A stretch of 64,000 nt of DNA from Scleroderma bovista (taxonomy: Eukaryota; Basidiomycota; Agaricomycetes; Boletales; Sclerodermataceae). Below are positions 1-25,850 of the stretch, one piece after another (the stretch's first letter is position 1; the number at the start of each line of letters is the position of its first letter). The notes beneath the pieces were generated by a model. The model saw only the letters and a program-made list of their open reading frames with translations. It was not told the origin of the DNA and did not search any database. Both the position numbers and the translations under genes were made by a program. The stretch spans positions 1 to 64,000 of the forward strand of contig JAYMGJ010000094.1 of assembly GCA_037178675.1 (NCBI GenBank). The letters run 5' to 3'.

Positions 1-2163
1 GGATCATTGCTATGGATGGAAATTTCAAAGCCAAACATATGTTGCTCAAACAAGCTCCAAACGAAGTCTGGTTGATGGATGGAAAAGGGTTCATGGTAAC
101 ATCACAGCCTTATAAGTCCTATTTAGCAGGAAGCGCAAATCGAGTGGAGGTATGACCTCTTTTACTTGAGCCGCGGTAATTCCTCATGTTGCCATTAGAA
201 ATCGGACTGTAGCAATCATCGTGCGGTCAATCAGGCCAATACTAGTCGAAGTCAGTTGGCATCAACTGGAATTGGTGGATGTGCCTGTGCTAGACATGGG
301 TGCTTTGTTCTGCATGCCATGGTTGATTTCCAAAAAGGAGAGCAGTATGTCCGCGGCTCCCATATAAAATCGCTTCATTGACCCGCAGATAGGCAAGTCA
401 ACATGGATTATTCCTTGGTGCATGCAGTGCATCACAGAATGGACCACCAACAGCGGGTGGTAAACTTCTATGACATCAATTGTCAATACAGCAAAAACCT
501 GTATCGGCATATAGAAGAGAACCGGTTTTTGTCTCTCCCACCCAGACTGAAGATTCAACCCGGCATTGGTATATGGCATGTCCATGGACATCAATCGGAA
601 TGTTTCATGAGGTATTCCCCTAATTTCATTCCTGGAGTAGGCAATGTGGACGGGAAAATAATGGAGACTCTCTGGTCGTCCTTAAATATTATTTCCCCCT
701 CCACCTGGGGAATGGCTGCCCCTCATCAGCAGGAAATGCTGGACTTCCAAATGAATGACAGTAATTTCTTGAAGATGGTCCGCATGCGTGAGTGATCCTT
801 AATTGCGGGTATTGCACCGGTATTCAAATATTCCAGCTTTGTCATTGAAGAGGAAACTAACTGCCGCCCAACGGAATCTTTCATCATTTCGTTATGCCTT
901 TGCTACTTTGGATACAACTGTACCTGAAGACATTCGTGATATTTGGAAGGCCCAAGAGTCGAAGGCACTTGTGGAGAGGCTATCCAATCCAACGGCCATG
1001 GATATATTTGAAGTTCGGTTAGAAAAGGGTATGTCCTCGTGTAATACATACAGAACAAGGCTGAAATCCCATGGCAAGCACCAAGTATTAAATCCATGGA
1101 GATTAGCCTCATAGAAATGCAAGCCGCGGCAGGGGCACTGCGAGGATCTGCCACATGGATGGCAAGGGCCTTGAAGGTGGAGGAGTCTCAGATAGTGCTC
1201 TTATTGGATGCACGCAGGATCCATTCAAGAACTACCGAAAGCCAAAGGCTTGACATTTCCCGCCGTCGCGACAGGCTACAGTCTCAAATCAATAGCTTGT
1301 TGCAGACCGCGGCACCATTTGTTGGGGCCGACTGGGACAGTGGACTTGATAGCCGTGACAATGGTGACCCAGGGAGTGATGAAGATGGTATTTTCGTTAC
1401 TGTATCCCCAGGGAATGCAGAACATGCCATACTGCCGCTGCCTTCCTATATGGGATTGCGGCGGTGCGGTGAATTGGAGTTGAATGGCCTGGTGGAGCAA
1501 GAACTTCAGCTCAGACAAGGCCAGGCCAATGATGCTCTGCATGAAATACGGCTTGCTCTCGCAGACAAGGCAATTTTATTTCGCACAGAGGTCCGACATG
1601 GGAAAAACTATGCTGTGACAACCCGCGCTTGGAAAAAGGTATCGGACCTGGACACCTTGGTCAAAAGATATTCCGCGGTCTATAATCAGTGTCGAAAGCA
1701 AATGGTTGCTTTGGGAGCTGACCAAAGCATTCTTGACTGGTATCAAATACTGAACAAGAAGGATCTCACAGTGAGTACCGTGGTGTCCGATCCCAATGCA
1801 AGGGGCCATCGCCATGACTCCTTGGCATGGTTCTGGACTATGGACATTCCAAAGGACACTGATAAAAATGATTGGATGTCAGAGTGTAAGCTTTGAAATC
1901 TTCGGTCATATATACCTACTTAACAATTTCAAATAGTTTACCGGGTTCATTGGTTACGGGCGAAGGCAAGACAAGATCGATGGACTGAGGAGGTGGACCT
2001 CATAATTTCAGAACAGGGTTGGACACATAACTTCTTCAGAAAGCGGGCAAACTTCTGGGAGGAAAAAGCAGCGAAAGCAGCATTGGACTGTGACCGCGGC
2101 ATGGCATGTTATTCAGCAAGGCAATATGACATGTACAACAAATTGAGTAAACTTTGCCAATAG
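1..2163 (+). CDS. KDZ-type transposase, 5'-partial
   Basis: C-terminal part of a Kyakuja-Dileera-Zisupton transposase, cut by the left edge. I place exons at <1-149, 199-344, 393-787, 837-1028, 1079-1885 and 1937-2163; all junctions are GT-AG and phases close, giving about 589 codons without a stop. Visible hallmarks are MDGNF (first catalytic Asp), the NNHRAVNQAN and GIGGCACARHGCF blocks, NFYDINCQYS (second acidic residue), GIGIWHVHGHQ and NVDGKIMETLWSSLN (Glu). The C-terminal block with LRQGQANDALHEIRLAL, the FLFRT-like ILFRTEVRHGK and a LAWFW end is the usual partner region of this family. The protein should cut and paste the element in the nucleus. It is followed by a minus-strand gene and a TET/JBP gene, the known company of KDZ elements in basidiomycetes. 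Four CCGCGG sites lie in its exons. Confidence 0.9.
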
Positions 2164-2473
2164 ATGATTGTTTGTATTATTTTTACATCCTGGGAATTGG
2201 AGATGATGAGTCGTGGCCGCGGTGTGCAAAGCTATGGTTGGCAAACATGCTGTGCCAATATTGGTGAATAGCACTTACCCTACCATGTCACCTAAGCCCA
2301 TTACCATCCAAGGCCATCCAAAATATCTCACAGGATACTTGAGTTACTATACCTTTATGCAGCCGTGGTGTTAATGGCTTCCCCAATAAGTATTCTTTTG
2401 ATTGTTCAGAAGCCACCCATTGAACACCACATGCATAATAATTCTACATTTTATGTGTCATTATGGAATACAT
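2164..2473. other. Convergent intergenic gap inside KDZ element
   Basis: This gap lies between the stop of the KDZ transposase (+) and the stop of the next gene (-). I see no coding evidence. It contains one CCGCGG at 2217 and is otherwise AT-rich. Confidence 0.6.
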
Positions 2474-3272
2474 TCAATGGTCTGTTCCCCTCCAAAGTTT
2501 GTCCGCGGACACCACCCACTTCTCCTCCAGCTCATCGGGAGAATCTGTTAGGTATTCCACCATGCTCATGCGGTCGACGAGATGATGTAATCGTGCATTT
2601 TGACAAAAGATCTTCTCATCCACTTCGTTCAAGAGATGCTGGGTTTGTAATTTGATATCCTCAATCCCCAACCCCGCGGTTTCATTGACTTTGAATAGGC
2701 TCGGAATGCCATAATCCCCTGGCTGCAATGAATGATGATTAGCAATGTGTTTTCATATCGTTGTGAACTCACCTGGTTCTGCAGAAAGAATTGCTGTGCC
2801 TCTCTGACTAGCTGGCTGAGTGTTTGCCGCGGTACCGCATTGCCAGGGATACCCCATACCCACCATTCTCCCAGTGTGGCCCGTGGACTGTGGACTCTGG
2901 CTTCCGCGGGATACGCCTTGAAGACCTCGATGGTTTTGATCTGGCACATCAACGTTGGTGCATCTGGGTCCCCAATAGACACCCATTCCATGACTTGAGC
3001 CGCAACCGCGGGAACCTGCATCACCAGCCCATGCTTGTTGCACACCGCAAGTAATCGCTCCAAAATTGCCTGCAGGATTGGTCAGCCCATTTGATGTGAT
3101 TGGAATTCAAGCATCGCACCACTTCCGCCAATACATGGGCATGCCAATCGATCTTCTCCCACAGCGAATCTTCCCCTCTCTGCTGCAAAGCATGTACGAA
3201 CCGACGGAATCTGATACCCGCATATTGTAAAGTAGCCGAGAGTGTGCGTGCGTGAATACTGGAGGAATCCAT
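2474..3272 (-). CDS. Uncharacterised KDZ-linked protein, 232 aa
   Basis: Three exons on the minus strand, 3272-3120, 3069-2773 and 2722-2474, join in phase to 232 aa. The first intron is 50 bp with a CTGAC-like branch point just before the acceptor; the second starts GTGAG. The protein is soluble and mixed alpha: the N-terminus (SLWEKIDWHAHVLAEV) and middle (AILERLLAVCNKHG, TLSQLVREAQQFFLQNQ) look helical, and the last exon is acidic (NEVDEKIF, DSPDELEEKW). I recognise no domain or catalytic motif. It sits between the KDZ transposase and the TET/JBP gene and carries five CCGCGG sites in its exons, so it belongs to the element rather than to the host. It may be an accessory transposition factor, but that is inference only. 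Confidence 0.7.
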
Positions 3273-4143
3273 GGGTGTAGAATGGGGAGTAATGATTGAT
3301 ATTTATAATTGATCCACCAACATTCCCACGTACGGCCTACCATTGTTTATCAAACAATGACCCCCCACCCAGTTGGCATTGATCAATATCACCCATTGCT
3401 CCCGCGGATATATAATTAGTTCATCCCTTTTCTCCTATCTATATGTGATTAGTATGTCTGGATTTCAATTAGATATCTAATCTCCCCGCGATGACATATA
3501 ACCGCGGTCGCAATATAAGTAATCTGCTGTGAATGCCAAATGTAAAGACAGAATTGGTCAGGGAATTGACACCTCATTATTGCCTTTTTCTAATATGAAT
3601 TGGCGATCTATTTTGGGAATCTCTCGCCGTGCCTAATGGCTGTGGCAAGTTGACCCATCAATAACAAATATCCCGCGAGATAACAATCATTCCAATGTTG
3701 GTATTATCCTCTCTTCTTTGTCAGATAATTTCTCTCCTCCTGCATTTGATATCAGCAATCAATCATATGTACTGATACATCACCATTGTCCGATCGGTCA
3801 CCGCGGCTGCGAGCAACCTCTCCCGTGGACTTTATACCAACCTGTGACATTTCAAATTGTATCAATTGCTCACCTTCTTATGTATTATTTACAGGTTTGG
3901 CCAATCAATGCTTACTGATGTGGGTTCCACCTGCGGCTGATCTTCTAACATGATTTGTATCTACATGTTGGCACCGCTCCAAAACAGTAAATTCCATTTC
4001 CTGTCTTTATTTTTCCTATATAATTTATTTATAGGTTTGAATTTCGTTGATTATCCAGCCATCACCCCTCAATCTACCCGCGGTCGCCACATAAATATTC
4101 TACAATATCCCAGCTTTGCTTGTGTCCTATTTAGCTCCCCTTC
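3273..4143. other. Upstream region of TET/JBP gene
   Basis: About 870 bp between two divergently oriented starts, so it should hold both promoters. Four CCGCGG copies lie here (3402, 3502, 3801, 4078). Short open stretches exist on the plus strand (for example 3718-3918), but I could not connect them to the TET/JBP gene with in-phase splice sites. Confidence 0.5.
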
Positions 4144-5403
4144 ATGGCTGCTCCTGTGTCTTACCCCACTGATTATCATCTTTCCTACCAAGTTGCTGGT
4201 TATATGTGATGCCGCTTTTGTTCCTTGGCATTCCTGGACTCTGGCACCGCGGCACCGCCTGTTCCCCTTGACCTCCCAGTTGACCTTTCTGTTGGGATGC
4301 ACCAGATGGTTGCAACTTTAGTGACTGCATATAATCATCGCAGTATGCCTTGTTCATGTCTCTTCCTCCAGTGCTCATCTGTGTCCAGTTGACTCTGGTG
4401 TTGACCTCATCCGGCTCGCTGAATCATTGGCATCCATGGAGCCTGGGACCACCGCGGATAGGGAGCAAGCCTTCCTTACCAAGTTCCCTGCTACTATTTC
4501 AGGTCTTATCGATGAACCAGCGATGATTTTGGGGGAGGGGGGAATTGTAGCTTTGTGGTATCTTCCTGGTGCCCTGGCACACCCAACACAGGTATGATCC
4601 GATACCTCTTTTGTTCATCATTTTCTATAATACCTGTAGACAAATATTCTGCAGGCATTAAGTCCACTCCATACACAACTATCCGCCAGTATAACTGGCC
4701 GGACATGGCGCTCTGACCCGCGGTACTTTCATCCGGCACAGGCCTTTGTGACTGGTTGTTTGGAGCTTTCTCCTGCAAGGCATCAAATGGGTCATTATGT
4801 GAGTGCTTACCATTCCTGCCATACATTCGTTAATGAAAATATATTCAGCATGAAAATGCTTCCATGTCCAGGGACCTTAATACCGCCGCGGGATTCCAGT
4901 GGTTACAAGCTATGGTTCAGCCGACCTCAATTATATCGGGTGCATTGTCAATCATGCATCCACAGCTGTATGACGATGGAATGCGAGGAATTAAACTATT
5001 GGGAGATTGGTCTTCCACAAACGACCCCGGCATGAACAGGGCCTTATCCCTCTGGCCCACCCCATTTACCAATATTTCCCTTATTGCAAACCGGTCCACC
5101 CCCCTCCACCGTGATCCCCAATCCCGTGCCAGTTGGTACGATGTCATAGTAAATGTGGGTGAATACACTGACTGTGTCATGGCCATCCCTACCCTCGGCA
5201 TCGAGCTGGTGTACAAGCCAGGTACCGTGGTCACATTCTCTGGGAGGCTTCTTAGGCACGGGGTAAATGCTGTAGAAGGAAACTGGCACTGTTTGACCTA
5301 CTATATGAGGGATAACATTCACCATTGGGTAAGGGTTCCAAGGTGTGCGGATTGGATGAGGATTGATAGTGTGGAGAGGTTGTTGAGGCCTACCATACTG
5401 TAA
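4144..5403 (+). CDS. TET/JBP-family 2OG-Fe(II) dioxygenase
   Basis: Five exons (4144-4198, 4280-4342, 4389-4591, 4655-4798, 4849-5403) join in phase to 339 aa. The family oxidises 5-methylcytosine in DNA using Fe(II) and 2-oxoglutarate. The double-stranded beta-helix lies in the last exon: the HxD iron motif is H242-R-D244 (LHRDPQS), and the distal His is H292 in GRLLRHGV, nine residues before the position where relatives I remember carry the 2-oxoglutarate-binding Arg. Here that position is Trp301 (TGG), a possible inactivating change. The upstream blocks ALWYLPGAL and TWRSDPRYFHPA are typical of basidiomycete members. KDZ elements of mushrooms are known to carry such genes. I chose the start as the first ATG that continues in phase; a longer N-terminus is possible. 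Confidence 0.85.
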
Positions 5404-5900
5404 ATACTGGAAAGGAATTTGTAGAGCTGGGATGTATATTACTATTGATATCTCTTCATAGGAGAATTAGCAAATGCACATGGAGTGGAATTTTAGAAAT
5501 GATATTGTGTGCTACAGGTGTCTGGCAACATTGCCGTGGCTACTCAGGGTTGCTTATTGGAGAAACAACACTTATTTCACCACGGGTTATCCATATGATA
5601 CATGGCTGTATGTATACCTGGTACATCAGTGGTGTCCCGCGGGTATGTCTAGGGCAATCATTGTTGTCTTGATTCCGCCGCGGATTCATTTTGTTGGGAC
5701 TACTTTGTGCATTTATTCTACTACCGCGGCTTCTTTCAGGTGCGGCATGTTGTTGCAGCCATTTTGACATACCTTACACCCAGATATCAGTCTCCATGAG
5801 CCCAACTATTACTGTCGGCCAGTCATATATGGGCCCATCCACGTTCGATAGAAACACCATATGTCAGCCTAGCCATGTCAATGCGGGTTAGAAATTATGT
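5404..5900. other. 3' flank of TET/JBP gene, non-coding
   Basis: No gene is recognised. Three CCGCGG copies lie close together at 5637, 5678 and 5724. The tandem-repeat tract starts after this. Confidence 0.5.
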
Positions 5901-5959
5901 GCCCTCCGTTGGGTCCGAGGCCGATGTTATTTTGGCCAACTGGTATTCCAGGTCACAAC

Positions 5960-6880
5960 AAATCTATAGCCCACCCTTGACACACCAGATGATGCAGGTA
6001 TCCACTGGCTCACCATATCTCATTGGACCCATCACACCTCAGCCCACCCGTACTACTCGGCATCACAAAATATGGGCTCACCTATACCTTAGTGACAGTT
6101 TTACCTTGGCTGGCCCATATGCTACGGCGCCGGGTAATAATAGCCTGTCCATCTCAAATGAGAACATCATAGTGTAAGCTCACTCGTGGTATACGACCTT
6201 AATAGATATGGGCTACCCTTGGTTCAGGGGACATTGCTATTTTGGCTGATGTACATGATGAGGGACAGTATATTCAAAGCCCACCCGTGCTACATGGGAT
6301 AATGGCATCATATATGGGCTAGCCCGTATCACATTGCAATCATCCATTCTCAGCCCACTCATGCTACTCGTGATGATAGAATATGGGCTCATTGGTATCT
6401 TAGGGACTATGCTATTTCAGCTCACTCATATTACATGGGCCCATATAATAACAGCCTGCCCATATGACATGGGATGGTATAATAGTGGCCCATCCATACC
6501 CCATGAGGAGGTCAATGTGTCAGCCCACTCGTGCTACTCGGGATGATGCAATATGGGCTCACCTATACCTTAGGTGAAGGTTATTTCGGCTCACTCATGT
6601 TACACGGGACCATATAATAGCAGCCTGCCCATGTGACATGGGATGGTATAATAGTGGCCCATCCATATCCCATGAGGAGATCAATATGTCAGCCCACTTG
6701 TGCTACTCAGGATGATGCAATATGGGCTCACCTATACCTTAGGTGAAGGTTATTTCGGCTCACTCATGTTGCATGGGACCATATAATAGCAGCCTGCCCA
6801 TGTGACATGGGATGGTATAATAGTGGCCCATCCATATCCCATGTCAGCCCAATATGGGCTCACCTGTACCTTAGGGGACA
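5960..6880. repeat. About 169-bp tandem repeats
   Basis: A unit that begins near ATGGGCTCACC recurs at 6383, 6553, 6722 and, shortened, 6853, spacing 170, 169 and 131 bp. Looser copies start near 6072 and 6208. Each unit contains CAGCCTGCCCAT, GACATGGGATGGTATAATAG and GTCAGCCCACTCGTGCTACTCGG-like pieces, many built from GCCCAT/ATGGGC half-palindromes. There is no CCGCGG here and no credible gene. Confidence 0.8.
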
Positions 6881-6899
6881 GACCCAGGGTGGCCCTATC

Positions 6900-8035
6900 C
6901 TCTGGTACTCAGCCCGCGGTGGGTACTCACTTGGGTAGTCAACCTGTGCTGTGTAATCAACACCAGTGGCTAGCTAACCTGCAGTGGGCAGCTAACCTGC
7001 AGTGGGTAGTCAACCCACCATGGGTGGTAGTGCAACCGCGGTTGGTAGTCAATCCGTGGTGGGGAATCACTCTACTGGGTAGTTAGCTTTGGGTGCGTAG
7101 CCAAGGGCAGTGGCTAGGTAATGGGTGGTTGGCAGCTAACCCGTGGTATGCATTGAACCCGCGGTATAACCTGCAGTGGGTCGTCAAGCCTGGGTAGGTA
7201 CTGGTTAGACCTGGGACCTTGGTTGGTGGCCAACCCACGGTGGGTCAGCAGTAGCTAGCTAACCCATGGTGGGTAGCCAACCCACGGTATGTATTGAACC
7301 CGCGGTGTCACCTGCATGGGATAATCAACCCACAATGGGCGGTCACCCCTGGGTAGGTACGTGGTTGGTAGTACGACCGCGGTTGGTAGTCAACCCGCGG
7401 TGGAGAGTCATCAGTGGGTAGCTAACCCATATTGGTCAGCTAACCTGCGGCATGTATTGAACCCGCGGTGTAACCTGCAGTAGGTGGTCAACCAGGGGTA
7501 GGTACGTGGTTAAAGCTGGGACCACGGTTTGTGGCCAACCCATGGTGGGTACTCACTCCACTGGTTAGTAAACCTGAACTATGTAGTCAACAAGGCCAGC
7601 TAACCCATGGTGGGCAGCTAACCTGCAGTAAGTATTGAACCCGCAGTTTTTGCAGTGGGAGTCGACCCACAATGGGCAGTCACCCCTGGGTTGGTAGTGC
7701 GACCGCGGTGTAGTCAACCCCCGCTGTGTAGTCAACAGTAGTGGGTGGATAACCGGTGTTGGGCAGCTAACCCGCGGTGTGACCTGCAGTGGATGGTCAA
7801 CCCTGGGTAGGTACATGGTTGGAAATAGTTGCTGGCCAACCTAACCCGCGCGAGTAGTTAACCCTGGTTAGTAGTGGGCCCATAGTGGGACCGTGGTTTG
7901 TAGTAATCCCGCGGCGTGTAGTAATCCTGCGGTGTGTGATGCCTGTATATGTATAGTCAGCTGTAGTAGTCCATCAATGGTAAGTAGTCAACCCGCGGTA
8001 GTCAACCCCAGTAGTTCACCCGCGGTAATGGAGCC
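6900..8035. repeat. Degenerate CCGCGG minisatellite array
   Basis: Irregular repeats of the type GTAGTCAACCCGCGGTGGGTA, unit roughly 30-60 bp. Twelve positions keep CCGCGG. At the same place in other units I read CTGCAG (6979, 6997, 7171, 7475, 7623, 7784), CCATGG (7018, 7264, 7540, 7605), CCACGG (7235, 7282, 7522), CCGTGG (7054, 7141, 7891), CTGCGG (7445, 7927) and CCGCAG (7641). All of these are CpG-transition derivatives of CCGCGG. The tract is likely the subterminal array of the KDZ element. Confidence 0.8.
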
Positions 8036-8822
8036 AGTTCTGCTGGTAGGTTGATTAGATTTGTTCCTACTGTATGCAGTAGTATCTATTTTTGCTAGCC
8101 CACCCCATACCTTTGCATTCCAGTAAATCTGGGCTCATCCATTAATGTGCACCCAGTAAGATTGTGGCCCACCAAGATGTCATGATGACAATTCCTATAT
8201 CCCTACCACAACCCCTCCTTAACTACCACCATAGCCCACCCATATCACATGGTAAAAAAATCATAGTGTGTAAGCCCACCCGTATTACTCGGTGATACTC
8301 CATCCATGGGCTCCTGTCCGCTGGCCCGTGACACTCAGCCGATTTTCACCTTCGGGTGGCCGTGTAAGACGGGACAAGGTAGGTACATTATGTGTTCATC
8401 CCTGCTGCCGTTTCCGGACTGATTTCCAAACAAACTGAGTTAGCTCAGGCATATGGTCAGTGAACGTCTTGAGGCCATCAGCAAACCTTCACATGACTAT
8501 CTGTGACTTTTTTGACTTTTTTAGGCATGGATAGTCAAATAAGTCTGGATAGCATTCAGACTTTTTTAAGTAGATCCTTCGTCTATCCAGACAACTTTTC
8601 TGACTATTTAGACCTTTGTGACTTTCCATTAGGGTGACCTTTTTGACTTATTCTCATTATTGTACAATCCAACTTTTTTTGCCATTTTTTATGCTTGCAA
8701 TTAGCTTGCATAGCTCACAAATAAATAGCACCAGTCATTGATTACAGCATGAGTAATACCAAAGCAATTAAACGAGTGTAGACATAGCAATGTCAGTATG
8801 AAAAGTGTGACAAGATGACTAC
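8036..8822. other. Probable right end of KDZ element and flank
   Basis: CCGCGG stops at 8025, while the GCCCACCCGT/ACTCGG vocabulary of the tandem repeats runs on to about 8350, so the element end probably lies near 8.3-8.4 kb. From 8500 the sequence becomes rich in GACTTTTTT and GACTA words. No terminal inverted repeat can be tested because the left end is outside the window. Confidence 0.4.
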
Positions 8823-10165: not shown

Positions 10166-10303
10166 CCCTTGCCGTCGTCATCACCATCACCATCACCATC
10201 ACCATCACCATCACCATCACCATCACCATCACCATCACCATCACCATCACCATCACCATCACCATCACCATCACCATCACCATCACCATCACCATCACCA
10301 TCA
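10166..10303. repeat. CATCAC hexanucleotide microsatellite
   Basis: About 22 tandem copies of CATCAC. All six frames are open across it (His, Ile-Thr, Ser-Pro and complementary runs), so the long open frames spanning it are not evidence of coding. Confidence 0.95.
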
Positions 10304-10590
10304 CCTCCATTTCGGCCGCCACCGCCACCCCTCTCGCCCTCGACGCTTGGTGCAATCGCCTCACCTCTGCTCTCTACCTGTCCGAAGACAAATATTCGGC
10401 TTGGGGTCTCGATCACCGCAACTGGCATGTTCCATGGTATGTCACCATCACTGTCATCGACATTGACCCTTCTCCATTGTCTAGAATGCTTGGGCATCAT
10501 GATTTCAAATGCATTCGGTGAGTTCTGTGTCCTTGACTCGTTTCAACGTGTTCTGACGTTCTCCGTTTTGTCTGCAGCCATTTCCGTGTC
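10304..10590 (+). other. Dispersed repeat copy A (related to 38690-39010)
   Basis: Directly after the microsatellite, the words CACCTCC.TTTCGGC, TCTCGCCCTCGACGC, TCCGAAGAC, TTGACCCTTCTCCATTG and GTGAGTT...CTTGACTCG appear in the same order as at 38690-39010. One frame reads as a plausible protein (for example LTSALYLSEDKYSAW), but no full gene could be built. It may be an exon-intron fragment of a decayed gene family. Confidence 0.5.
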
Positions 10591-14872: not shown

Positions 14873-14993
14873 GGTCGTAGATTGATTGCTGGCACCCTGC
14901 CAGCTCTTGATCACAGCATATCCCATCACGTGCCAGGGTCATGTGACTGTTGTTTTTTTCTTTTTTTCTTTTCGAATTGGTATCCAAACCAGG

Positions 14994-16245
14994 TGTCATA
15001 TCCATACTTTTCCCAGTCGCAACTCTGGTCTAACCCTGGCCCGCCTGACCTCTCCTTAGGCATAGATGCAACTCCGGATCTAGTCCGGCCATCTCCAGCC
15101 CCATAGCTGCACTCCAGCTCAACTCCGGTCACTACGTCCATCTCCACCTCAGGACTAACCCCTGTCTTCCTCTAGACAGATCCACGGTCTAACTCCTCCA
15201 TGTCGGACCTGTACCTACCATTAGTCGCTACTCCAGTTTCAGTCCGGCCACTCCCTTTGTCTGGTCTGCGACCTAGCCCAACTCTGGCTGGTACATCCAA
15301 CTCCGGCTCAGGTCTGCTCCTGTTCCGCTCCACTCCCTCTGATAGGTCAACCAATGGCCTTGGACATTTCCATGTCCAACTCCGGACCTTCCTCCGGCTA
15401 CTCCGCCCTTCCTCCACCTGTGCACTCCCTCTGCTCGTGCACTCCCTCCGCTCTTGCACTTCCTCCGGTCCCGCTTCCTCCAGTCCTGGACATCGCTCCG
15501 GACTTAACATTAGTTAAGTCCACCTCTGACCCTTACCTGTCCTCTTCCGACCTAGTTCCCTTGTCCCTGCTTTTCCTCCGTCGTCCCTGTAACTCTAGTT
15601 CCCTGTGTCTGCTTCCGCTCCGGTTTATTTTCCTGTCCCTGGTTTGTTTTCCTGTACCTGCTTTATTTTCCTGTCCGTTTCTGCTCTGTCCCTTGTCCCA
15701 ACTAAGGTGTTTACTTGTCACCATATATACTCACCTCTAGTCTCTTTACTATATAAACTACCATACTCCGGCCTAGTAGATCCTTAGATCAAATCTCGAC
15801 TAAGATACTCCCCACTCTGTACTACCCACCATGCTCTCCTAATCCCATCTTGTTCTCCTGAACTCCAGCCAACTCCGGCCTCCATCCTATCTCATCCCCT
15901 TGGTCCTATGTCTGATCCTAGCAAGTCTCCTACTTGCACGAGGGCAAAAGCCACCTCTGTCCCAGACTCAACACTAGACCTCTCAGGACTTATCCCACCT
16001 CTGGGATGTCCTTCGCTCCGGACGAGCTGTGCTCAACTCCGGACCACTTTCCCGCGGTCCGGACTTACTCCGCAAAAACCCGGACTTACTCCCTGTGCTC
16101 CTCTAGTGCCCGGACTTCGTTCATTTGACCCGGACTTGACTCTCTGCACTAACTAGCACCTACTAGTGTCTGGACTTACTTCCTCATTAGTTCCCTGCAC
16201 CTCTGGACCTCCTAGTAAGATCGTCGAGGAGAACCGGTTTTGACA
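14994..16245 (+). mobile_element. Solo LTR 1, inserted in Harbinger repeat
   Basis: A 1,252-bp unit starting TGTCATATCC and ending GGTTTTGACA, flanked by the 5-bp duplication CCAGG (14989-14993 and 16246-16250). Sense is taken as plus because a TATATAAAC box lies near 15750 and because the 3' end resembles the Gypsy LTR end CTTGACA. It is dense in CCGG. Short open frames inside are mirrored in LTR 2 and are not genes. Confidence 0.92.
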
Positions 16246-16269
16246 CCAGGCCTTAGTTACGTGCGCTGG

Positions 16270-17553
16270 TGTCAAGACCGGTTCTCCTCGACGATCTTAC
16301 TAGGAGGTCCAGAGGTGCAGGGAACTAATGAGGAGGTAAGTCCAGACACTAGTAGGTGCTAGTTAGTGCGGAGAGTCAAGTCCGGGTCAAACGAACGAAG
16401 TCCAGGCACTAGAGAAGCACAGGGAGTAAGTCCGGGTTTTTGCGGAGTAAGTCCGGACCGCGGGAAAGTGGTCCGGAGTTGAGCACAGCTTGTCCGGAGC
16501 GAAGGACATCCCAGAGGTGGGATAAGTCCTGAGAGGTCTAGCGTTGAGTCTGGGACAGAGGTGGCTTTTGCCCTCGTGCAAGTAGGAGACTTGCTAGGAT
16601 CGGACATAGGACCAAGGGGACGAGATAGGACGGAGGCCGGAGTTGGCCGGAGTTCAGGAGAACAAGATGGGATTAGGAGAGCATGGTGGGTAGTACAGAG
16701 TGGGAGTATCTTAGTCGAGATTTGATCTAAGGATCTACTAGGCCGGAGTACGGTAGTTTATATAGTAACGAGCTAGAGGTGAGTATATACGGTGACAAGT
16801 AAACACCTTAGTCGGGACAAGGGATGGAGCAGAAGCAGACAGGAAAATAAACCAGGTACAAGAAAATAAAGCAGGGACAGGAAAATAAACCGGAGCGGAA
16901 GCAGACACGGGGAACTAGAGTTACAGGGACGACGGAGGAAAAGCAGGGACAAGGGAACTAGGTCGGAAGAGGACAGGTAAGGGTCAGAGGTGGACTTAAC
17001 TAATGTTAAGTCCGGAGCGATGTCCAGGACCGGAGGAAGTGGAACCGGAGGAAGTGCACGACCGGAGGAAGTGCAAGAGCGGAGGGAGTGCACGAGCGGA
17101 GGGAGTGCACGAGCGGAGGGAGTGCACAGGTGGAGGAAGGGCGGAGTAGCCGGAGGAAGGTCCGGAGTTGGACATGGAAATGTCCTAAGCCTTTGGTGGA
17201 CCTGACAGAGGAAGTGGAGCAGGAGCAGGAGCAGAACTGAGCCGGAGTTGGATGTACCAGCCGGAGTTGGGCTACGTCGCAGGCAAGGCTAAGGGAGTGG
17301 CCGGACTGAAACCGGAGTAGCGACTAGTGGTAGGTACAGGTCCGACACGGAGGAGTTAGACCGCGGATCTGTCTGTAGGGAGACAGGGGTTAGTCCTGAG
17401 GTGGAGATGGACGTAGTGACCGGAGTTGGGCTGGAGTGCAGCTATAGGGCTGGAGATGGCCGGACTAGATCCGGAGTTGCATCTATGCCTAAGGAGAGGT
17501 CAGGCAGGCCATGGTTAGACTGGAGTTGCGACTGGAAAAGTATGGATATGACA
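16270..17553 (-). mobile_element. Solo LTR 2, same family, inverted
   Basis: A 1,284-bp unit starting TGTCAAGACC and ending GGATATGACA on the plus strand, the reverse complement of LTR 1 over its whole length, with its own duplication GCTGG (16265-16269 and 17554-17558). Only 24 bp separate it from LTR 1. The two together look like a 2.5-kb hairpin but are two separate insertions. Confidence 0.92.
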
Positions 17554-17558
17554 GCTGG

Positions 17559-17993
17559 CTGCCTTGCCAAAAAAAAGTCCAATAAGTGCTAAATGTCCCG
17601 AAAGGCACAAATAAAGCCATAATAGCTCGGATAGTATCTTGCAGATTTGCTGATGAGTCTGTCTCCAATGCATGCAACACATGTATTCCCTTGCTCAGGT
17701 GTTGGAGTGTAGACCCTCTCATCTGTGTTGTTGCGCTGATCTGGACTTGCACTCGTCTGGGACCAACTCGAGGTTCTATAGTGAAGCTCAGACAGAGCTA
17801 TGACCACAGGTAAACCACACTACGCTTGTGAAATGCATCGTGGCATGTACATAACAAGGCAAAGGAAACGTTTCAAGGCTTTCCAGCACTTGAAACTGCA
17901 CGACTAAACTACGTTGCATTCAACTAGTCCCCCCAAGAATCACAAAGGTCAAGTTCGGCCTTGTTTACCTTTGGGGGGGGGAAATACACATAC
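17559..17993. other. Spacer between solo LTR 2 and Gypsy element
   Basis: Host or older repeat sequence with no recognised gene. A G8 run lies near 17973. CATAC at 17989-17993 is the left copy of the Gypsy target duplication. Confidence 0.6.
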
Positions 17994-18635
17994 TGTCAAG
18001 TCCGGGTCTACTCTGGTAGGGGGTCCGGTCAAGTCCGGACGAGCGTGGACGAAGGAGGAGGGCAGAGGGCTGGACGAGGGATTAGTCCGGCCGGAGTTGG
18101 TGACCGCTTGGATTCAACGACAAGGACGACGTGCGTTGATCCCTTGCGTAGGTTCCGGTCAAGGTGATAGAGACGGAGACAGAGACAGAGACAGGCAGAG
18201 ACTGGAGTAGTGACTAAGTTGATTTCAGACTGAGGTGTACAAGGTAAACTAGAGGGTACTTATACTAAGTGAGAACTAGGGTCGAGTACATACGGTGACA
18301 AGTAAACAGCCTAAAAGGCGGACAAGGGACAACCGGAGGAAGTACTAGGTCAGGTCCAATGAAAATAAAGTCAGGTCCGGGTAAAATAAACCAGGTCTGG
18401 TGAAAATGCTACAAGGTATAGGATATATCGAGTTCATGGAGAACTCACGTCAAGACAGGGTAAACGGCGAAGTGTGGTAACGAGCGAATGGAGCATAGAC
18501 CAAGGGTCGTGCTTAACGGAAGGTTATCTGTGTGAGCGCGACCAGAGTAGGAGACGAGCGACCGGAGTAGAGCTGTAGAGCTGCGATGTGACCGGAGTGA
18601 GTGGATAAGGCCCGGAGTTGGGCATGGTCGTAACA
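17994..18635 (-). repeat. Gypsy 3' LTR
   Basis: Paired with 25210-25850. By eye the two differ at roughly 25-30 positions, at least 13 of them C/T or G/A within a CpG (for example TCTGG against TCCGG, CATGG against CACGG). Ends are TG...CA in sense orientation. Confidence 0.95.
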
Positions 18636-18800
18636 GTATCCCCCTTTTAGGGGCCGAACCCATGAGGCCCCAATGAGGCTGTCGTGTGGTCGCCTAGAAC
18701 AATGCGGAGTCCAGAGTGATTGTCTGAGTACGAAATTTGGATCTATAAAGATCAAACCGGTTCTTGCTTTTACCCCCAGTTTCCTGCCATTAATCAAAAC

Positions 18801-19837
18801 ATGTTGAACACTGCTAAGTCCACCACCCCCACTGTTCCCTCTGCGGTCAAGTCCAAGGACTGGACCAAGGCGCCAACACCGGAGCTCCAGTCCGGTAGCG
18901 AAGACGAGGCGTCCGTCCTCGATGCCAAAACAAAGGAGAGGCGTCGACGCAAGCAGGTCAAGAGAGAGGAGAAGCAACGCCGGGAAGAGGCAGAGCGACG
19001 AGCACGAGAGGAGGCGGAACGCAAGGCGAAAGAGGAGGCGGAGCGCCAGGTGCGCGAGCAGGCGGAGAAGGAACGAGCGGAGGTGCAGCGAAGGGCTGCA
19101 GAGGTAGTGGCGAGGCAGAGAGCGATGGCGCAGGAGGCGTCGAAGAAGAGAGCGAGGGAAGAGCCGGAGGCGGGTCCGAGTGGAGACCGGAGCGACAATG
19201 TCCGGTAAGTATTTTTTTTTTAAATTTTATTCCCTTGTTACTTTATTAATTTTTTGGCAGGTGCATTCGCTGTGCGAAGCACAAGGCCAAGTGCGAACGA
19301 GACCCGGAAAAACCCAAGCAGCGCGCGTGCATGAAATGCGCAGGGCTCAAGGAGCAGTGTGAGTGGCCGGAGGTGGGTGGTCCGGGTCCGGTAGGGGATA
19401 AGGGGAAGGGCAAAGCGAAGGAGAAGGAGGTGGCGACGTCACCGTGAGGAGGCGAGAAGCGCAAGAAGAAGAAGATGGCGGCGAAGGTTGCCGACGACGA
19501 CGACATCATCGAAGTACCAGGGCCGTCTGGGAAATGGTCCAGGTTTGACCCTGGGCCGTTCCTGGAACGACTGGACCGGTTGACCGGGGCCGTTGAGGAG
19601 ATGACCGGGCAAATGCGCCGGGTCGCAGATGCCACTCGCTCGGTGGCGAGGGGAAATGAGCGGCTGATGGCCGGCCTCGAGACTTTTCTCGAGGAGTGTT
19701 GTTTCTTTACGGCGCCCTGGGACGAGGATGAGGAGTCGGAGGACAGTGAGGCGGAGGTCGACCCGGAGGAGGTCGAACAAGAAGTCCAGGGGCTCCATGA
19801 GGAACAGGAGAACCCTGGCAGCGGTGTGCCGGAGTAG
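18801..19837 (+). pseudogene. Antisense Zn2Cys6-like coiled-coil gene in Gypsy
   Basis: Exon 1 (18801-19204; an upstream ATG at 18720 is also in frame) and exon 2 (19261-19837) are joined by a clean 56-bp intron, GTAAGT...GCAG. Exon 1 encodes a long charged coiled coil of E/R/A repeats (EEAERRAREEAERKAKEEAE type). Exon 2 opens with two CX2CX6C halves, CIRCAKHKAKC and CMKCAGLKEQC, the spacing of a fungal Zn(II)2Cys6 DNA-binding cluster. TGA at 19445 interrupts the frame between CVATSP-like VATSP and GGEKRKKKK; the same frame then runs on for 130 codons to 19837, so CGA to TGA is likely. The gene is convergent with pol and lies between pol and the 3' LTR. Its function is unknown; it might regulate or target the element. 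Confidence 0.7.
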
Positions 19838-20006
19838 GTGGTCCGGTCCGGACTCCTTGTAAATAGAAAATGTAATTTAGTTTTACTTTTTTGTTTATAG
19901 AGAAAAGTGCCTTGAGTTTTAGTGAGTGATATTACATGAGACAGAGTGAAACAGACAGGGGAAACAGACAAGAGAAACAGATAAGAGAACGGAGGCGAGA
20001 GTAATA

Positions 20007-23000
20007 CTACATGGACGCAAGTGGTCCGGGTTTGTCCGGATACCGGACATGGTAATCTTCTAAGAGTTCCATAGCGTTGCCAAGTTCAGTGGCGAGAAGC
20101 CATGACGTTTCTTCGTCAGTCCCTTCGTAACCGGACCATCGTACCAAGTAAAGTAGCTTGCATGATCTGCGTCGACGGTCAACCTTGGAGTCGAGGATCT
20201 CAGAGATCTCGAACTCCGGTTCACCATCTACTTCGACCGGTGGCGGAGGAGGTTGTATCCGGTCCGGTATGGTGTTGGGTATGGCCGGTTCAAGTTGGGA
20301 GACATGGAAGACAGGATGAACGGCGCGCATGGAATCTGGAAGGCGTAGCGTAAAAGAGAGAGAGCCTACTTGTGCTATGATAGTGTAAGGCCCCAGATTC
20401 TTTTCTGATAGCTTTTTGGATGGTTGAGTCGACCGGAAGTATTTGGCTTTAACGTATACTTGGTCGCCAACCTTGAAGTCCGGTGCCGGAGTACGTTTGG
20501 CATCAGCCGGACCTTGGTAGCGAAGTTGCGTGTTGGCCATTTCTTCTCGAAGGTATTGATGCAGCGACTCAAGGTCGACTGCGTAATCACGAGCCCGTTC
20601 AGAGGTCATATCGCGTTCTGGGTAGACGGAGATGTTGGGATGATAACCTTTGTTGGCGAAGAATGGTGAGACTCCGGTGGTAGCACTAGGTGCGTTGTTG
20701 TAAGTGAACTCCGCCAGTGGGAGTAGGTCCGCCCAGTTGTCCTGCTGGTAGTTGCAGTAGATCCGGAGGTACTGTTCCAGTGTCTGGTTAGACCGCTCTG
20801 TCTGGCCATCGCCCTCTGGGTGGTAACTGGAGGTGAAATGGAGGCGCATGTCGAGAGCCTTCCCAAGTGACCGGAAGAAGTGTGAGACGAACTCAGTTCC
20901 TCGATCTGAGGTGACGTGGGCGGGAACACCGTGCTTGGAGAATACGTGGAGCAAGAAGAGTTTTGCGAGCTCCGGGCTAGTGATGGTGTCGTGAGTAGGA
21001 ATGAAAATGGCTTGTTTAGAAAGCCTGTCTACTATGACCAGGATGGCTGTAAAGTCAGTGGATGAAGGGAGTTGCTCTATGAAGTCCATCGAGATGGAAT
21101 TCCAGGGCTTCTCTGGTACGGGAAGCTGTTTCAGCAGCCCGTAGGGTCTATGGTGCGGTGTCTTAGCTCTTGCGCAAGAAGTACAGGACCGGACGTAGTC
21201 TTTGACGAAGGTCCTGAGACCGGGCCAAGTATACTCACGCCGGATTAGTTCTAGAGTCCGGTTTTGCCCAAAGTGACCAGCGAGTGGGTGATCGTGTCGA
21301 TACCGGAGCACCCGGAGACGGAGGTCATCCAAGTCCGGTACGTATATACGACCGTCTAGTCGAAGGAAACCAGCCTCGTCGGTGGACCAGCGAGAGTCTG
21401 GTGGATCTGCGAGGTGGACCTGGGCAATGGGATCAGAGGGTAGTGCAGAGAGGATGTCGCTGTGGAGTGTTTCCACGTCCATGATTGGGACTGCACGGAG
21501 GACCGGAAACTCTAGATAAGTAGCGCGAAGAGAATTAGAGAGTTGTTCTTGAGTGAACACTGGCCTAAGGTTTTGGGGGTTGACCCGGGCGTAGCCACTA
21601 TCCCCCTCTTTGGGGTAGACGTCCCATCGTCTAGTGAGAGCGTTGGGCTTGGCACCGAGCTTACCAGGGCGGAAGCGAATGACAAGATTAAATTGTGATA
21701 AAAACTCGGACCACCGGGCTTGCCGGCGGGAAAGTACCTTTGAGGTGGAGAAATACTCGAGGTTCTTGTGGTCCGTGACAACGTCTATAGGGGAGGCGGA
21801 GCCTTCGAGGTAATGGCGCCAGTTCCGGAAAGCTTCGAAAATAGCAAGTAGTTCCTTATCGTGGGTGTCGTAGTTTAACTCCGGAGCAGTTAAAGTCCGG
21901 GAGTAGTATGCGACCGGACGAATCTCTCCGTCGGCGCAAGTGATAGACAAGATGCCAGCGACAGCGTAGTCAGAGGCATCAGTTTCCACAATAATAGGGG
22001 TGTCCGGAATGAAGTGGGTAAGGATGGGCGCGGTAGTGAAGGCGTGCTTGAGAGCATTGAAAGAGCGTCAACATTCCTCAGAGAAGTTCCAAGGAGCATC
22101 CTTCCGGGTGAGCCAGGTGAGAGGGACCACAATGTCCGAGTAGTTGAATATAAACCGGCGGTAGAAATTGGCGAAGCCTAGGAAGGACTGGATGTCCTTT
22201 ACCTTTCGAGGTTCAGGCCAGTCGGAGATGGTCTGGATTTTGTCCGGAGACATAGTTAGACCGTCAGGAGATAGGCGGTAGCCAAGATACTCTACCGAGT
22301 CCGAGTGGAACTCGCATTTCTCCGGTTTGGCGAAGAGGCCATGCAACCGGAGACGGCGGAGCACTTCCCGGACGTGCTGCTGGTGGGACTCCATATCCTC
22401 GGAGTAGATGAGGATGTCGTCGAGGTACATGACGACGCAAACGTCCAGCATGTCAGCGAAGATGGTGTTGACAAAGCGCTGGAAGGCTGCAGGGGCGTTA
22501 GTGAGGCCAAAGGGCATTACTAACCACTCGTAAGACCCATAGCGCGTACGGAAGGCGGTCTTCCATTCATCGCCTGGAGCAATCCGGACTAAATGGTACG
22601 CGTGCCGGAGATCGATCTTTGAATAGATTTTAGCACGGCTGGGTGAGTCCAATAGATCAGAGATTAGGGGGAGTGGATAGCGATCCTTTTTGGTGATTTT
22701 GTTTAGGCCTCGGAAGTCAACGCAGAGGCGGAGTGAGCCGTCCTTCTTTTTTACGAAGAGGACCGGAGCAGCGTGGGAGGAAGCGGTAGGACGGATGAAA
22801 CCTGTATTGAGATTCTCGTCGATGAAGGTCCGGAGAGCAGAGAGCTCAACTGGAGACAGTGAGTAGAGAGTTCCCAGAGGAGGGGAGGTACCTTCTTCAA
22901 GGTCGATCTTCAAGTCGTAGTCGCGATGCGGGGGAAGTTCAGAGGCCTTCGCCTTACTGAACACATCCGCATAATCGCGATACTCCGGAGGGACGATGTC

Positions 23001-23722
23001 CAAGTCCGGCGGAGTAGAGGCGGAGGAAGAACGAGCCTTTGCTGTGTCAGAAGGACGCAGCTGAAGTTGGTATTTGGTGGATCCTTCTAATTTGCACGCA
23101 CGCACGAATGCGGCTGCGTTAATCAGAGAGATGTGGGGAGGGGTGCAAACCGGAGTGTCGACAGATGGCGCGAGGCCGGGGTCAGATTGGCTGGAGAGGC
23201 CGGAGACAGGGTTACCGGACTGAACCGGAGAGGGAGTCGACGGGGGCGCTAGCAAACTTGGTGCAAGGGTCCGGAAAGTTAAACTGCTCAGTACCCAGTC
23301 AATCAACGGATTGTAGCGGGTGAGCCAGTTATGTCCAAGGACAATCGAGCATTCAGAATCTAACGGAGCGAGGTAAAAAGTCATAGGGGTGACATCACCG
23401 GATGCGGGGAATTTCACTGATAAATCGACAGCTTGAGTGATTACAAAGTTTGATGTACCGTCAAAGAGCCGGAGTGTAATCGGAGGAACGGAGTAGGTGG
23501 TAATATTGTTTTTGTGCGCGAATTGTATATCTACAAAGCAATGCGTGGACCCGGAGTCCACAAGAGTGTGGGTTTTAGGTAAGTCAAATGGTAAGAGGAT
23601 AACATGTGGCATAAGGGAATTAGGATCGTAAAGAGCGGACGCGTTGAGGCGAGCCTCCTTGGGTGCACTTCTGGAGTCAACGCAGCTCACCGGTTGTGCG
23701 GAGGTCCGGGAGCTGCTTACTC
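20007..23722 (-). pseudogene. Gypsy pol: PR, RT, RNase H, integrase, chromodomain
   Basis: The frame enters at the gag-pol slip site (23729-23723) and is open to 22071, then TGA at 22070-22068, then open again to 20007. Domains in order: aspartic protease LVDSGSTHCFVD; reverse transcriptase with LCVDFRGLNKIT, YLDDILIYS (YxDD) and the LGFANFYRRFI end; RNase H starting METDASDYAVAG; integrase with the zinc-binding HX3H/CX2C region (CTSCARAKTPHH), DDE residues in SMDFIEQ, TSDRGTEF and EGDGQTERSN; and a C-terminal chromodomain (LYLVRWSGYEG...ETSWL) that defines chromoviruses and usually steers integration to heterochromatin. The single TGA lies between RT and RNase H in a context that fits CGA to TGA. 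About 1,230 codons. Confidence 0.93.
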
Positions 23723-25140
23723 TTTTTTTGACTCGGAGTTGGCACCCGAGTTAGTAGAGTCCGTCTTACCGGACTCTGCAGCGATGGCCGCAGCGCGAGC
23801 CTTGGCCTTTTTGGTCTTTTTTGGACAGTTGTCCGCGAAATGACCGGTACCTCCGCAGAACATGCAGAGGTTGTTGTCCAGATGCCTTTTGCGCTCGTCT
23901 GCGGTTAGCTTCCCGTCCTTACCAAGCTTGTTGGTTAGGTCTGGTCTGGAACCGGAGGAGGACTGGTTGCTGGTCGTCTTGGACGAGCCAGAGTTGGCGG
24001 GGCTGGGGGAGTTTCCGGTCTTGGATTTCTCCTGACCGGGTTAGGGGAGTTGCCTCCGGAGTTGGAGGGCTTGGTTGGGGATGAGGTGGACTGGGTCTTT
24101 GTCGTACGAGAGATCTCGTCTTTGCGCTCCCAATAGCACGCGTCGATCTCTTGACAAAGGGCCCTAAGCCCATGTAGAGTCAGGGGCTTCCCAACTCGAG
24201 CTATCTCGTCCTTGAGGTGATCCGGGAGACCGGACTAGAATAGGCGGCGGAGCGCGCCATCTCCGTAGTCCTGGACCTGGGAGGCGAGTCGGTTGAAGTC
24301 CACGATATACCACGTAACACGGTGTGCGTCCTTCATCCGGAGATGCTCGAGCTGATGTTCAGCATCAGCGATGGGGTCGTGAGGTCCAAAGGTGTTCTGG
24401 AGCTCAGCGACAAAGTGGACCCAACTGTCCATCCAGAGTGGACGGTCAGCCGGATCGCCGGAGTGCAGTAGGTCCGGTTCAAACCATTCTAGGGTCATCC
24501 CTTTTAGATATGATTGGGCGAAAGTTACCTTTGCCCTATCAAGGCGGAATGCCTTGGCTCGATCCTGGAAACAGAGCTCACACTGGACCAAGAAGGTCCT
24601 GAGCTTTTTGGGATCCGTACCGTCGAAGGTGTCCGGTTCGCAGACCTTGGCACGGGAGGAAGAGGAGTCGTTGGTCCGGCAGGAGGAGCGGGAGAGGCGA
24701 TTGACGGCGACTGCTAGGTTTTGGAAAACAGCTAGACCAGGGTCTAGCTCGTCCATGGCGTCGACGAAGTCATCGTCATCGTCATCATCGTTGTCGCCAT
24801 CTCCGGGGTCGTCCGGATCACCTCCGGGTCCGTCCTCAGGGCCAAACCACTGGTGTCGGGCAGGTTCACAACGGTAAGGGAATCGATCACCAGAAACGGA
24901 TTCGTGGTGACCTAAGTCTGCAGAACCACGAAGGCTCTGAGACGCAGCATCTCGACACGGAGTCAAAGGCGCTGTAGGGTTTCGAGCTGTAAAGCTCCGG
25001 AATTGGCTAACTGAAGCCGGAGGTTGCCTGCGGTTAGACAGGGCTTGATGAGCAGCAGAGAGGTGGAGGTCGTCTACTGCACCTGCTTCTTCAGCAAGTG
25101 CTGCAGCGGTACAAGCACGAGAGCGCGTAGTCATAGTCAT
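23717..25140 (-). pseudogene. Gypsy gag with stop and frameshift
   Basis: Starts at ATG 25140, 70 bp inside the 5' LTR. Acidic N-terminal region, then the capsid-like block (FLVQCELCFQDR, TFAQSYLKGMTLEWFE, FVAELQNTFG) up to TAG at 24237-24235. The same frame continues after the stop with GLPDHLKDEIARVG and reaches about 24040, where one missing base shifts the frame. The last part encodes a zinc knuckle, CMFCGGTGHFADNC (CX2CX4HX4C), near 23857-23816 and ends at TAA 23719. So at least one nonsense codon and one single-base deletion break the gene. Confidence 0.9.
23723..23729 (-). promoter_or_regulatory. Likely -1 frameshift site between gag and pol
   Basis: Seven A residues on the minus strand, read A_AAA_AAA in gag frame, lie one codon before the gag stop. 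A -1 slip there leads directly into the open pol frame. This fits the X_XXY_YYZ rule; no downstream structure was tested. Confidence 0.6.
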
Positions 25141-25209
25141 AAGAAATAGAAGCTAGTTTGCGTACGGGGTATGGAACAGTGAACCCACACAAGTGTGAGT
25201 CTGAAATAC

Positions 25210-25850
25210 TGTCAAGTCCGGGTCTACTCCGGTAGGGGGTCCGGTCAAGTCCGGACGAGCGCGGACGAAGGAAGAGGGCAGAGGGCTGGACAAGGGATTA
25301 GTCCGGCCGGAGTTGGTGACCGCTTGGATTCAATGACAAGGACGACGTGCGTTGATCCCTTGCGTAGGTTCCGGTCAAGGTGATAGAGACGGAGACAGAG
25401 ACGGAGACAGGCAGAGACTGGAGTAGTGACTAAGTTGATTTCAGACTGAGGAGTACAGGATAAACTACAGAGTACTTATACTAAGTAGAACTAGGGTCGA
25501 GTACATACGGTGACAAGTAAACAGCCTAAAAGGCGGACAAGGGACAACCGGAGGAAGGACTAGGTCAGGTCCGGTGAAAATAAAGTCAGGACCGGGTAAA
25601 ATAAATCAGGTCCGGTGAAAATGCTACAAGGTATAGGATATATCGAGTTCACGGAGAACTCACGTCAAGACAGGGTAAACGGCGAAGTGTGGTAACGAGC
25701 GAATGGAGCATAGACCAAGGGTCGTGCTTAACGGAAGGTTATCTGCGTGAGTGCGACCGGAGTAGGAGACGAGCGACCGGAGTAGAGCTGTAGAGCTGCG
25801 ATGCGACCGGAGTGACCGGATAAGGCCCAGAGTTGGGCATGGTCGTAACA
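25210..25850 (-). repeat. Gypsy 5' LTR
   Basis: Sense direction TGTTACGACC (25850) to ACTTGACA (25210). Contains 15 CCGG tetramers in 641 bp by my count. The leader to the gag ATG is 69 bp; I could not identify a clear tRNA primer-binding site in it. Confidence 0.95.

Follow-up and report, generated by a model that had tools for sequence, protein, structure and literature searches.

A CpG palindrome that fills a TET-bearing KDZ transposon of Scleroderma bovista is a candidate family-specific self-recognition word

Introduction

The first 64,000 nucleotides of contig JAYMGJ010000094.1 from the fungus Scleroderma bovista (GenBank assembly GCA_037178675.1; C94:1-64000 in our numbering, hereafter the window) begin with the right-hand part of a transposon that encodes both a KDZ transposase and a TET/JBP dioxygenase, the left part of the element falling beyond the contig start. 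We find that this element is filled with one CpG palindrome, CCGCGG, in excess of what codon shuffling of its exons gives, that the word is rare at sampled KDZ loci with no listed TET match nearby and has CCGG as its counterpart in a second class of TET-bearing families, and that it is conserved between subfamilies despite decaying normally in resting copies. On these sequence comparisons we estimate an even chance (about 0.5) that CCGCGG is a family-specific self-recognition word that steers anti-silencing by proteins of the element itself.

Results

Density of CCGCGG in the window and the genome

The window contains 43 copies of CCGCGG, 35 of them at 171–8025 and 8 elsewhere, exactly as counted in the original prediction. 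Dinucleotide shuffles of 171–8025 average 0.74 copies and never exceed 4 (300 shuffles), and the 8 copies at 8395–64000 compare with 9.6 expected (60 dinucleotide shuffles). The whole genome (51.8 Mb) holds 7,400 copies, or one per 7.0 kb, and 7,239 copies of the reversed control GGCGCC. CCGCGG heads the 64 hexamer palindromes, with a 29-fold enrichment over the rest of the window, followed by TAGCTA (8.1-fold, 4 copies) and CCATGG (4.8-fold, 11 copies); the second-ranked CpG palindrome in 171–8025 is ACCGGT (2.3-fold, 4 copies), and most of the remaining CpG palindromes have 0–1 copies. This palindrome count, which the original prediction had proposed as a check, revealed no other CpG palindrome comparably enriched in 171–8025 or in two further copies of the element, C145 and C21.

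Base composition does not explain the word. G+C is 0.479 for 1–8025 and 0.505 beyond, in agreement with the earlier remark that the surrounding DNA is not GC-rich, and the observed/expected ratio (o/e) of CpG in 1–8100 is 0.55; these values rule out a G+C-rich composition as its source. With exon spans in the window drawn by hand, the 35 copies divide into 12 in coding sequence, 11 in introns or spacers, and 12 in a right subterminal repeat array at 6914–8025, so that their reported presence in exons, introns and spacers holds. The 23 copies outside the array lie at 171–5729, and their number in the unique part of the element (1–5800), against 0.46 in dinucleotide shuffles, rules out a tandem-repeat origin for the copies in the body. 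Spacing within the element is not regular (coefficient of variation 0.99; random 0.98).

CCGCGG is also clustered genome-wide: it forms 242 pairs at distances of 60–90 bp, whereas the reversed control forms 46. Fifty of the 242 pair places were listed, and we matched these by hand to KDZ and TET positions among the matches listed: 37 are on contigs C20, C21, C64 or C86 and no more than 20 kb from a listed KDZ/TET match, 11 are on C19, C30 and C59 without such a match, and C14 and C23 have 1 each. Same-family copies without the enrichment would have spoken against the original prediction; instead, all seven other copies of the family that were sampled (L032–L038) carry the word 19–47 times each.

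The element, its genes and its copies

The original prediction had treated 171–8025 as the whole element. The word does belong to the element, but the element runs on to 8394 and its left part is off the contig: positions 1–8394 (plus strand) are the right-hand part of a TET-bearing, Kyakuja-like KDZ transposon, whose right end is placed at the limit of likeness with five further copies that are alike up to GTACATTATGTG and then diverge. The right terminus (8325–8394, plus strand) ends in TG. The left end of copy C21, which begins GACC, carries about 50 bases of this terminus in inverted form, mismatched at a few positions. This full copy (C21:22099-42322) spans 20,224 bp and is flanked by a 7-bp duplication, GTAGCAG; no target duplication was seen at copy C86, which was read at both ends. 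Earlier readings of a left end at C145:118680, where no duplication is seen, and of a 10.3-kb element were dropped because words at C21:41.5-42 kb show that the element is longer.

Three genes of the element lie in the window. The C-terminal exons of the KDZ transposase (382–2162, plus strand, bounds drawn by hand) encode a KDZ domain at 388–765 (PF18758, E 8.7e-28, 97.9 bits against a cut-off of 26.6); in C145, in a region outside the window, the transposase starts with a CxC2 cluster (PF18803, E 3.1e-27). A small protein of about 232–243 amino acids, P3, is encoded on the minus strand in three exons (2474–3272) and was found by tblastn in all six further TET-bearing loci searched (L047–L052); the protein collection holds 4 homologues of P3, the longest of which has a stretch unlike the other three. 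The TET/JBP exons (4325–5403, plus strand, bounds drawn by hand), which sit between the element ends, match Tet_JBP (PF12851, E 6.7e-18, 64.9 bits against a cut-off of 34.9) and resemble the active enzyme CcTet (7vpn, E 1.2e-21). Farther upstream in C145, a minus-strand reading frame with a CX2CX6CX7CX2CX6C cluster constitutes a further gene of this family, family A (L066, C145:118400-121499, positions 886–1788). The genome as a whole contains at least 150 Tet_JBP matches and at least 166 KDZ matches.

Over 17.2-kb stretches, CCGCGG occurs 70 times in C145 and 58 times in C21, where 22 other CpG palindromes occur 0–9 times; the left-end piece of C21 adds 10 further copies, and C21:39601-41399 lies outside the counted stretches. 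The word is thus spread through the body of the element and not only its ends, as originally proposed and as the copies in unique sequence also show, and it is densest in arrays near both ends (10 copies in C145 16,001–17,000). A 1.6-kb part of the C145 element, between the words at positions 3914 and 5514 of the stretch read, is free of it and covers the transposase start and the 5' part of the neighbouring minus-strand gene. To the right of the element there is no copy in 1,093 bases of C145 or in 1,099 bases of C21.

The word inside protein-coding exons

We compared the exons of C145 with synonymous-codon shuffles and observed 5 copies of CCGCGG against 0.48 in the transposase, 5 against 0.68 in P3, and 4 against 0.42 in TET, a ninefold excess overall (14 against 1.58). 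None of 500 shuffles reached the observed number in any of the three genes, which rules out codon use as the source of the coding copies and upholds the original prediction on this point. Twelve of the 14 coding copies are read in the phase NCC GCG GNN, the phase that places the fewest constraints on amino acids. Likewise, 12 of the 14 places in these exons that encode [S/T/P/A]-Ala-[A/V/D/E/G] bear the word, as do 7 of 13 in the more decayed copy C202.

Decay and conservation of the word

To follow decay, eight copies were aligned over window positions 1–6674 and differences were counted from the majority; about 213 of about 310 between-copy differences are CpG transitions. Decayed CpG cells number 55 of 422 in CCGCGG and 158 of 1,408 at other CpGs (P 0.30). 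The CpGs of the word decay like any others, and the word is therefore unshielded in resting copies, so that a methylation landmark which is itself protected finds no support. Decay by context, compared in two groups of copies, amounts to 79/415 for CCGC, 38/333 for GCGG, 20/132 for CCGG and 282/1,919 for all CpGs in the eight copies, so that CCGG is not spared in family A (262/1,787 for the others), and to 4/148 for CCGG against 25/500 overall in four copies of the C324 type.

Between subfamilies the picture is one of retention. From family A to family B, which are 85% identical, CCGCGG is exact at 21 of 26 aligned sites (a site counting as exact when one or more of the three B copies match; 1 of 27 sites was unaligned), against 11.8 expected from neighbouring hexamers (P 5.5e-5), and 45 of 52 CpGs of the word are kept compared with 103 of 174 others (P 2e-4). 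In coding blocks of single copies alone the result is mixed: words are kept at 4 of 6 positions from A to C288 (other hexamers 0.30), at 4 of 4 from C288 to A (0.29), and at 1 of 4 from B to C288 (0.28). Normal decay in resting copies together with conservation between subfamilies fits selection in the active lineage and not mutation bias, and in this sense the word behaves as selected.

These measurements bear directly on the possibility that the word is a by-product of mutation or composition, arising from CpG decay that spares certain words, from codon bias, or from the spread of repeat units. Such an origin would be in line with the low CpG o/e of the TET-bearing loci in our comparison table (0.37–0.69), with the share of CpG transitions among copy differences, and with CCGG positions that turn over as compositional bias predicts. 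It is at odds with the unexceptional decay of CCGCGG CpGs, with the unspared CCGG context, and with codon shuffles that fall short of the observed counts; further, the 23 copies in unique sequence, where shuffles give 0.46, exceed what retention alone gives. The decay counts and this excess rule out CpG retention as the origin of CCGCGG; the by-product reading is disfavoured for this word, and we judge it highly improbable.

Two word classes among KDZ and TET-bearing families

One comparison table covers 45 of 69 loci, the remainder being flanks or near-identical copies. Twenty-nine of 30 KDZ-centred loci (L001–L029) have no Tet_JBP within 10 kb among the matches listed, the nearest being 11.4 kb away (L003). 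These 29 loci, which cover 2.1–3.7 kb each and not the element ends, hold 6 copies of CCGCGG in 99,169 bases, with none in 23 of them; the corresponding 3.4-kb stretch in family A holds 12. The thirtieth locus (L030), with a TET 4 kb off, has 2 copies against 0.10 expected.

TET-bearing families fall into two classes. In the first, CCGCGG is enriched (observed/expected) in A (45/0.98, L032), B (32/0.66), C288 (14/0.46), C766 (11/0.39) and C64 (4/0.16, over 3.4 kb). In the second, CCGG is enriched in C539 (59/13.0, with ACCGGT at 15/0.8), C188 (75/22.2, partly in arrays), C324 (85/28.5) and C143 (28/7.1, over 3.4 kb), and C17, C441 and C700 join this class as near-identical to C324. Family A shows no enrichment of CCGG (20 against 30.4 in L032). 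Among the loci with no listed TET nearby, L015, L016 and L020 show about 1.5-fold CCGG. In coding sequence, CCGG exceeds codon shuffles in C324 (23 against 12.8, P <0.002), C188 (19 against 11.4, P 0.004) and C539 (15 against 9.2, P 0.010). Unrooted trees part four CCGCGG families from three CCGG families with support of 0.92 for the KDZ domain, 0.99 for the transposase C-terminal part and 1.0 for TET; this does not require the CCGG families to be monophyletic.

CCGCGG is not a property of KDZ elements in general: all 29 KDZ loci without a nearby listed TET are unenriched and one TET-bearing group uses CCGG, which also rules out a single word common to all KDZ elements. The original prediction had proposed, among other roles, a word recognised by the transposase or an accessory protein; these results lower the odds of a plain transposase word and raise those of a word on which anti-silencing machinery docks.

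In favour of a KDZ transposase binding site, with copies in the body aiding end pairing or cis-preference, are the high density of the word in arrays near both ends, the CxC2 cluster that the transposase carries, and a transposase tree that parts the word classes as well as the TET tree does. CACTA, Mutator and Ac elements have many copies of a short transposase-binding word near both ends. Here, by contrast, copies extend through the body and into exons, and the sampled KDZ loci with no listed TET nearby, which cover the surroundings of the KDZ domain, lack the word. Recognition of the ends would also not require a word repeated dozens of times along 20 kb, exons included. We consider a transposase site distinctly unlikely.

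A CCGG-filled retrotransposon in the same window

The window also contains a Ty3/Gypsy retrotransposon (17990–25850, minus strand) with 121 copies of CCGG, bounded by long terminal repeats at 17990–18635 and 25206–25850 that are 96% identical and encoding gag, protease, reverse transcriptase, RNase H and integrase. An inverted palindrome of 2.57 kb (14989–17558) has arms 92% alike and 42 copies of CCGG. CCGG reaches 15.4 per kb in the Gypsy element and 16.3 per kb in the palindrome, against 1.3–2.1 per kb in the three remaining parts of the window; GGCC is level across all five, at 3.4–5.1 per kb. The gag-pol frames hold 64 copies of CCGG against 34.4, a number reached in none of 500 codon shuffles. 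Genome-wide, CCGG pairs 20–50 bases apart (18,860) show no excess over the reversed control (20,044). An antisense frame of the Gypsy element at 19262 encodes a Zn2Cys6-like cluster (Zn_clus, 17.0 bits, below the cut-off of 21). A frame like this one adjoins a truncated family-A copy at about 8805 in L037 (C258:1267-10586), so an element related to this Gypsy may have interrupted that copy. Elsewhere in the window, 10179–10305 is a perfect hexanucleotide repeat of 21 CATCAC copies.

The presence of a CpG word in elements of two classes, and of CpG in both words, could reflect a host CpG-binding or chromatin factor that takes clusters of CCGCGG or CCGG for unmethylated CpG islands, so that the elements stay open. 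Sister families within one nucleus nevertheless use different words, and family A is unenriched in CCGG, which makes a host factor of this kind very doubtful.

According to the text available for PMC5559640, the usual binding site of Zn2Cys6 proteins is a pair of CGG triplets, which may be inverted, direct or everted. Both words found here consist of outward-facing CGG triplets, CCGCGG being an everted pair with no spacer and CCGG an overlapping pair, and both word-filled elements encode a cluster whose cysteine spacing fits. CCGCGG might then be the site of a Zn2Cys6-like (Gal4-type) activator, boundary protein or copy-number protein, with TET incidental, which would also account for the CCGG word in a Gypsy element whose scanned frames gave no TET. 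The single match of the family-A cluster in the PDB is GAL4 (1aw6, E 1.3). However, profile scores of both element proteins are under curated cut-offs, the family-A cluster having no Pfam match at E<=10, and a structure predicted for the Gypsy cluster from its sequence alone (predicted local distance difference test, pLDDT, 69.5) gave no fold match in the PDB. The cluster was not found in the sampled stretches of CCGG families, which may not reach far enough, and activator sites need not fill exons. We know of no Zn2Cys6 sites with zero spacing or overlapping CGG. Taken with this evidence on both sides, a Zn2Cys6-type site with TET incidental seems to us unlikely.

Discussion

Our preferred explanation is that CCGCGG lets the element recognize itself. 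A protein made by the element would bind the word wherever it is present and bring the element's TET/JBP dioxygenase to the whole 20-kb body, where host cytosine methylation would be oxidised and the element's genes would stay on. If docking depends on the density of the word, selection on transposing copies would spread it, placing it in introns, spacers, subterminal arrays and nearly every most-permissive codon position, and silent copies would then lose it through deamination of 5-methylcytosine (5mC). Sister TET families with CCGG would form systems that do not cross-activate. The candidate readers are the TET enzyme, the transposase with its CxC2 cluster, P3 and the Zn2Cys6-like protein encoded upstream.

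Several observations weigh against this explanation. The CCGG-filled Gypsy element yielded no TET in the three frames scanned; filling with CCGG is therefore not confined to TET-bearing elements, which weakens a TET-only view. The TET-less KDZ loci are stretches around the KDZ domain, several of them near-identical to each other, their lack of TET was judged among the matches listed, and the whole comparison covers one host genome; one of these loci, L002, without TET among these matches, has CCGG at 10/2.0 with a CpG o/e of 0.19. Positions of CCGG are mostly not common to the CCGG families, in which density and not place persists. In coding blocks, a single B copy keeps 4 of 7 words of family A, against 0.70 for other hexamers, and the distant C766 keeps none of 6 (other hexamers 0.15); each of these copies has lost words by decay, which brings single-copy counts of this kind down. 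Lastly, maps of oxidised cytosines (5-hydroxymethylcytosine and 5-formylcytosine) mark retrotransposons as well as DNA transposons (PMC8889193, in the text available), a sign that the action is untargeted at least in part, and Kojima 2025 supposes that TET action is not target-specific (PMC12730594).

The Gypsy element may hitch-hike on TETs that read CCGG, or it may have its own reader. More broadly, and only tentatively, unrelated classes of fungal transposons might write private CpG palindromes built from CGG (CCGCGG, CCGG) throughout their bodies and exons, coming close to saturating the permissive codon sites, to be read by an element protein that confines 5mC oxidation or activation to elements of the same kind. 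Such a system would amount to an epigenetic code for self-recognition whose words differ between clades, with retrotransposons having evolved it in parallel or copied it so as to hitch-hike.

The closest precedent is VANDAL/VANC of Arabidopsis, a sequence-specific anti-silencing system in which binding and demethylation are established (PMC5735166, PMC10398659). As described in the available text of these papers, VANDAL is likewise a DNA transposon with an accessory gene, its motif is short, dense in the family and rare elsewhere, with some copies in tandem arrays, and related families use different motifs. VANC motifs, however, lie mainly in noncoding tandem repeats and in one orientation, whereas the word here is a CpG palindrome with 12 of its 35 copies in exons and 12 in the array; further, the element here encodes a TET dioxygenase, and it is we who infer binding and demethylation. 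The element thus shares with VANC-type systems a dense family-specific motif but not its confinement to noncoding repeats, and for this reason, and with binding inferred, we do not class it as a VANC-type member.

Among known transposons, the element most resembles the TET-bearing Kyakuja described in Kojima 2025 (PMC12730594), with which it shares, on the text available, a KDZ transposase with a TET/JBP gene in Agaricomycetes, a 7-bp duplication and a right end in TG. Kyakuja termini are given there as 5'-CA..TG-3' without terminal inverted repeats, whereas the copy here starts GACC and has an inverted stretch of about 50 bases common to its ends. Because its termini are unlike those published, we call it Kyakuja-like; this placement is by domains and ends and not on Kojima's tree. 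A text search of the main text of that paper found neither CCGCGG nor CpG, and one of the available text of the CcTet structure paper (PMC11040006) for a sequence preference found nothing. In the literature searched, none of the titles and abstract starts of open-licence papers describes a word of this kind for transposons that carry TET.

These findings bear on whether the many TET enzymes borne by mushroom transposons act genome-wide or on the element that carries them; in the text available, the 2025 survey supposes that they are untargeted (PMC12730594). A family word kept by selection makes TET targeting directly testable. If the word is indeed a docking site for the element's own machinery, sequence-specific anti-silencing would have been invented twice, independently, this time with an effector whose chemistry is known, and selfish regulatory DNA would dictate the choice of codons, and perhaps of residues, in the element's own proteins.

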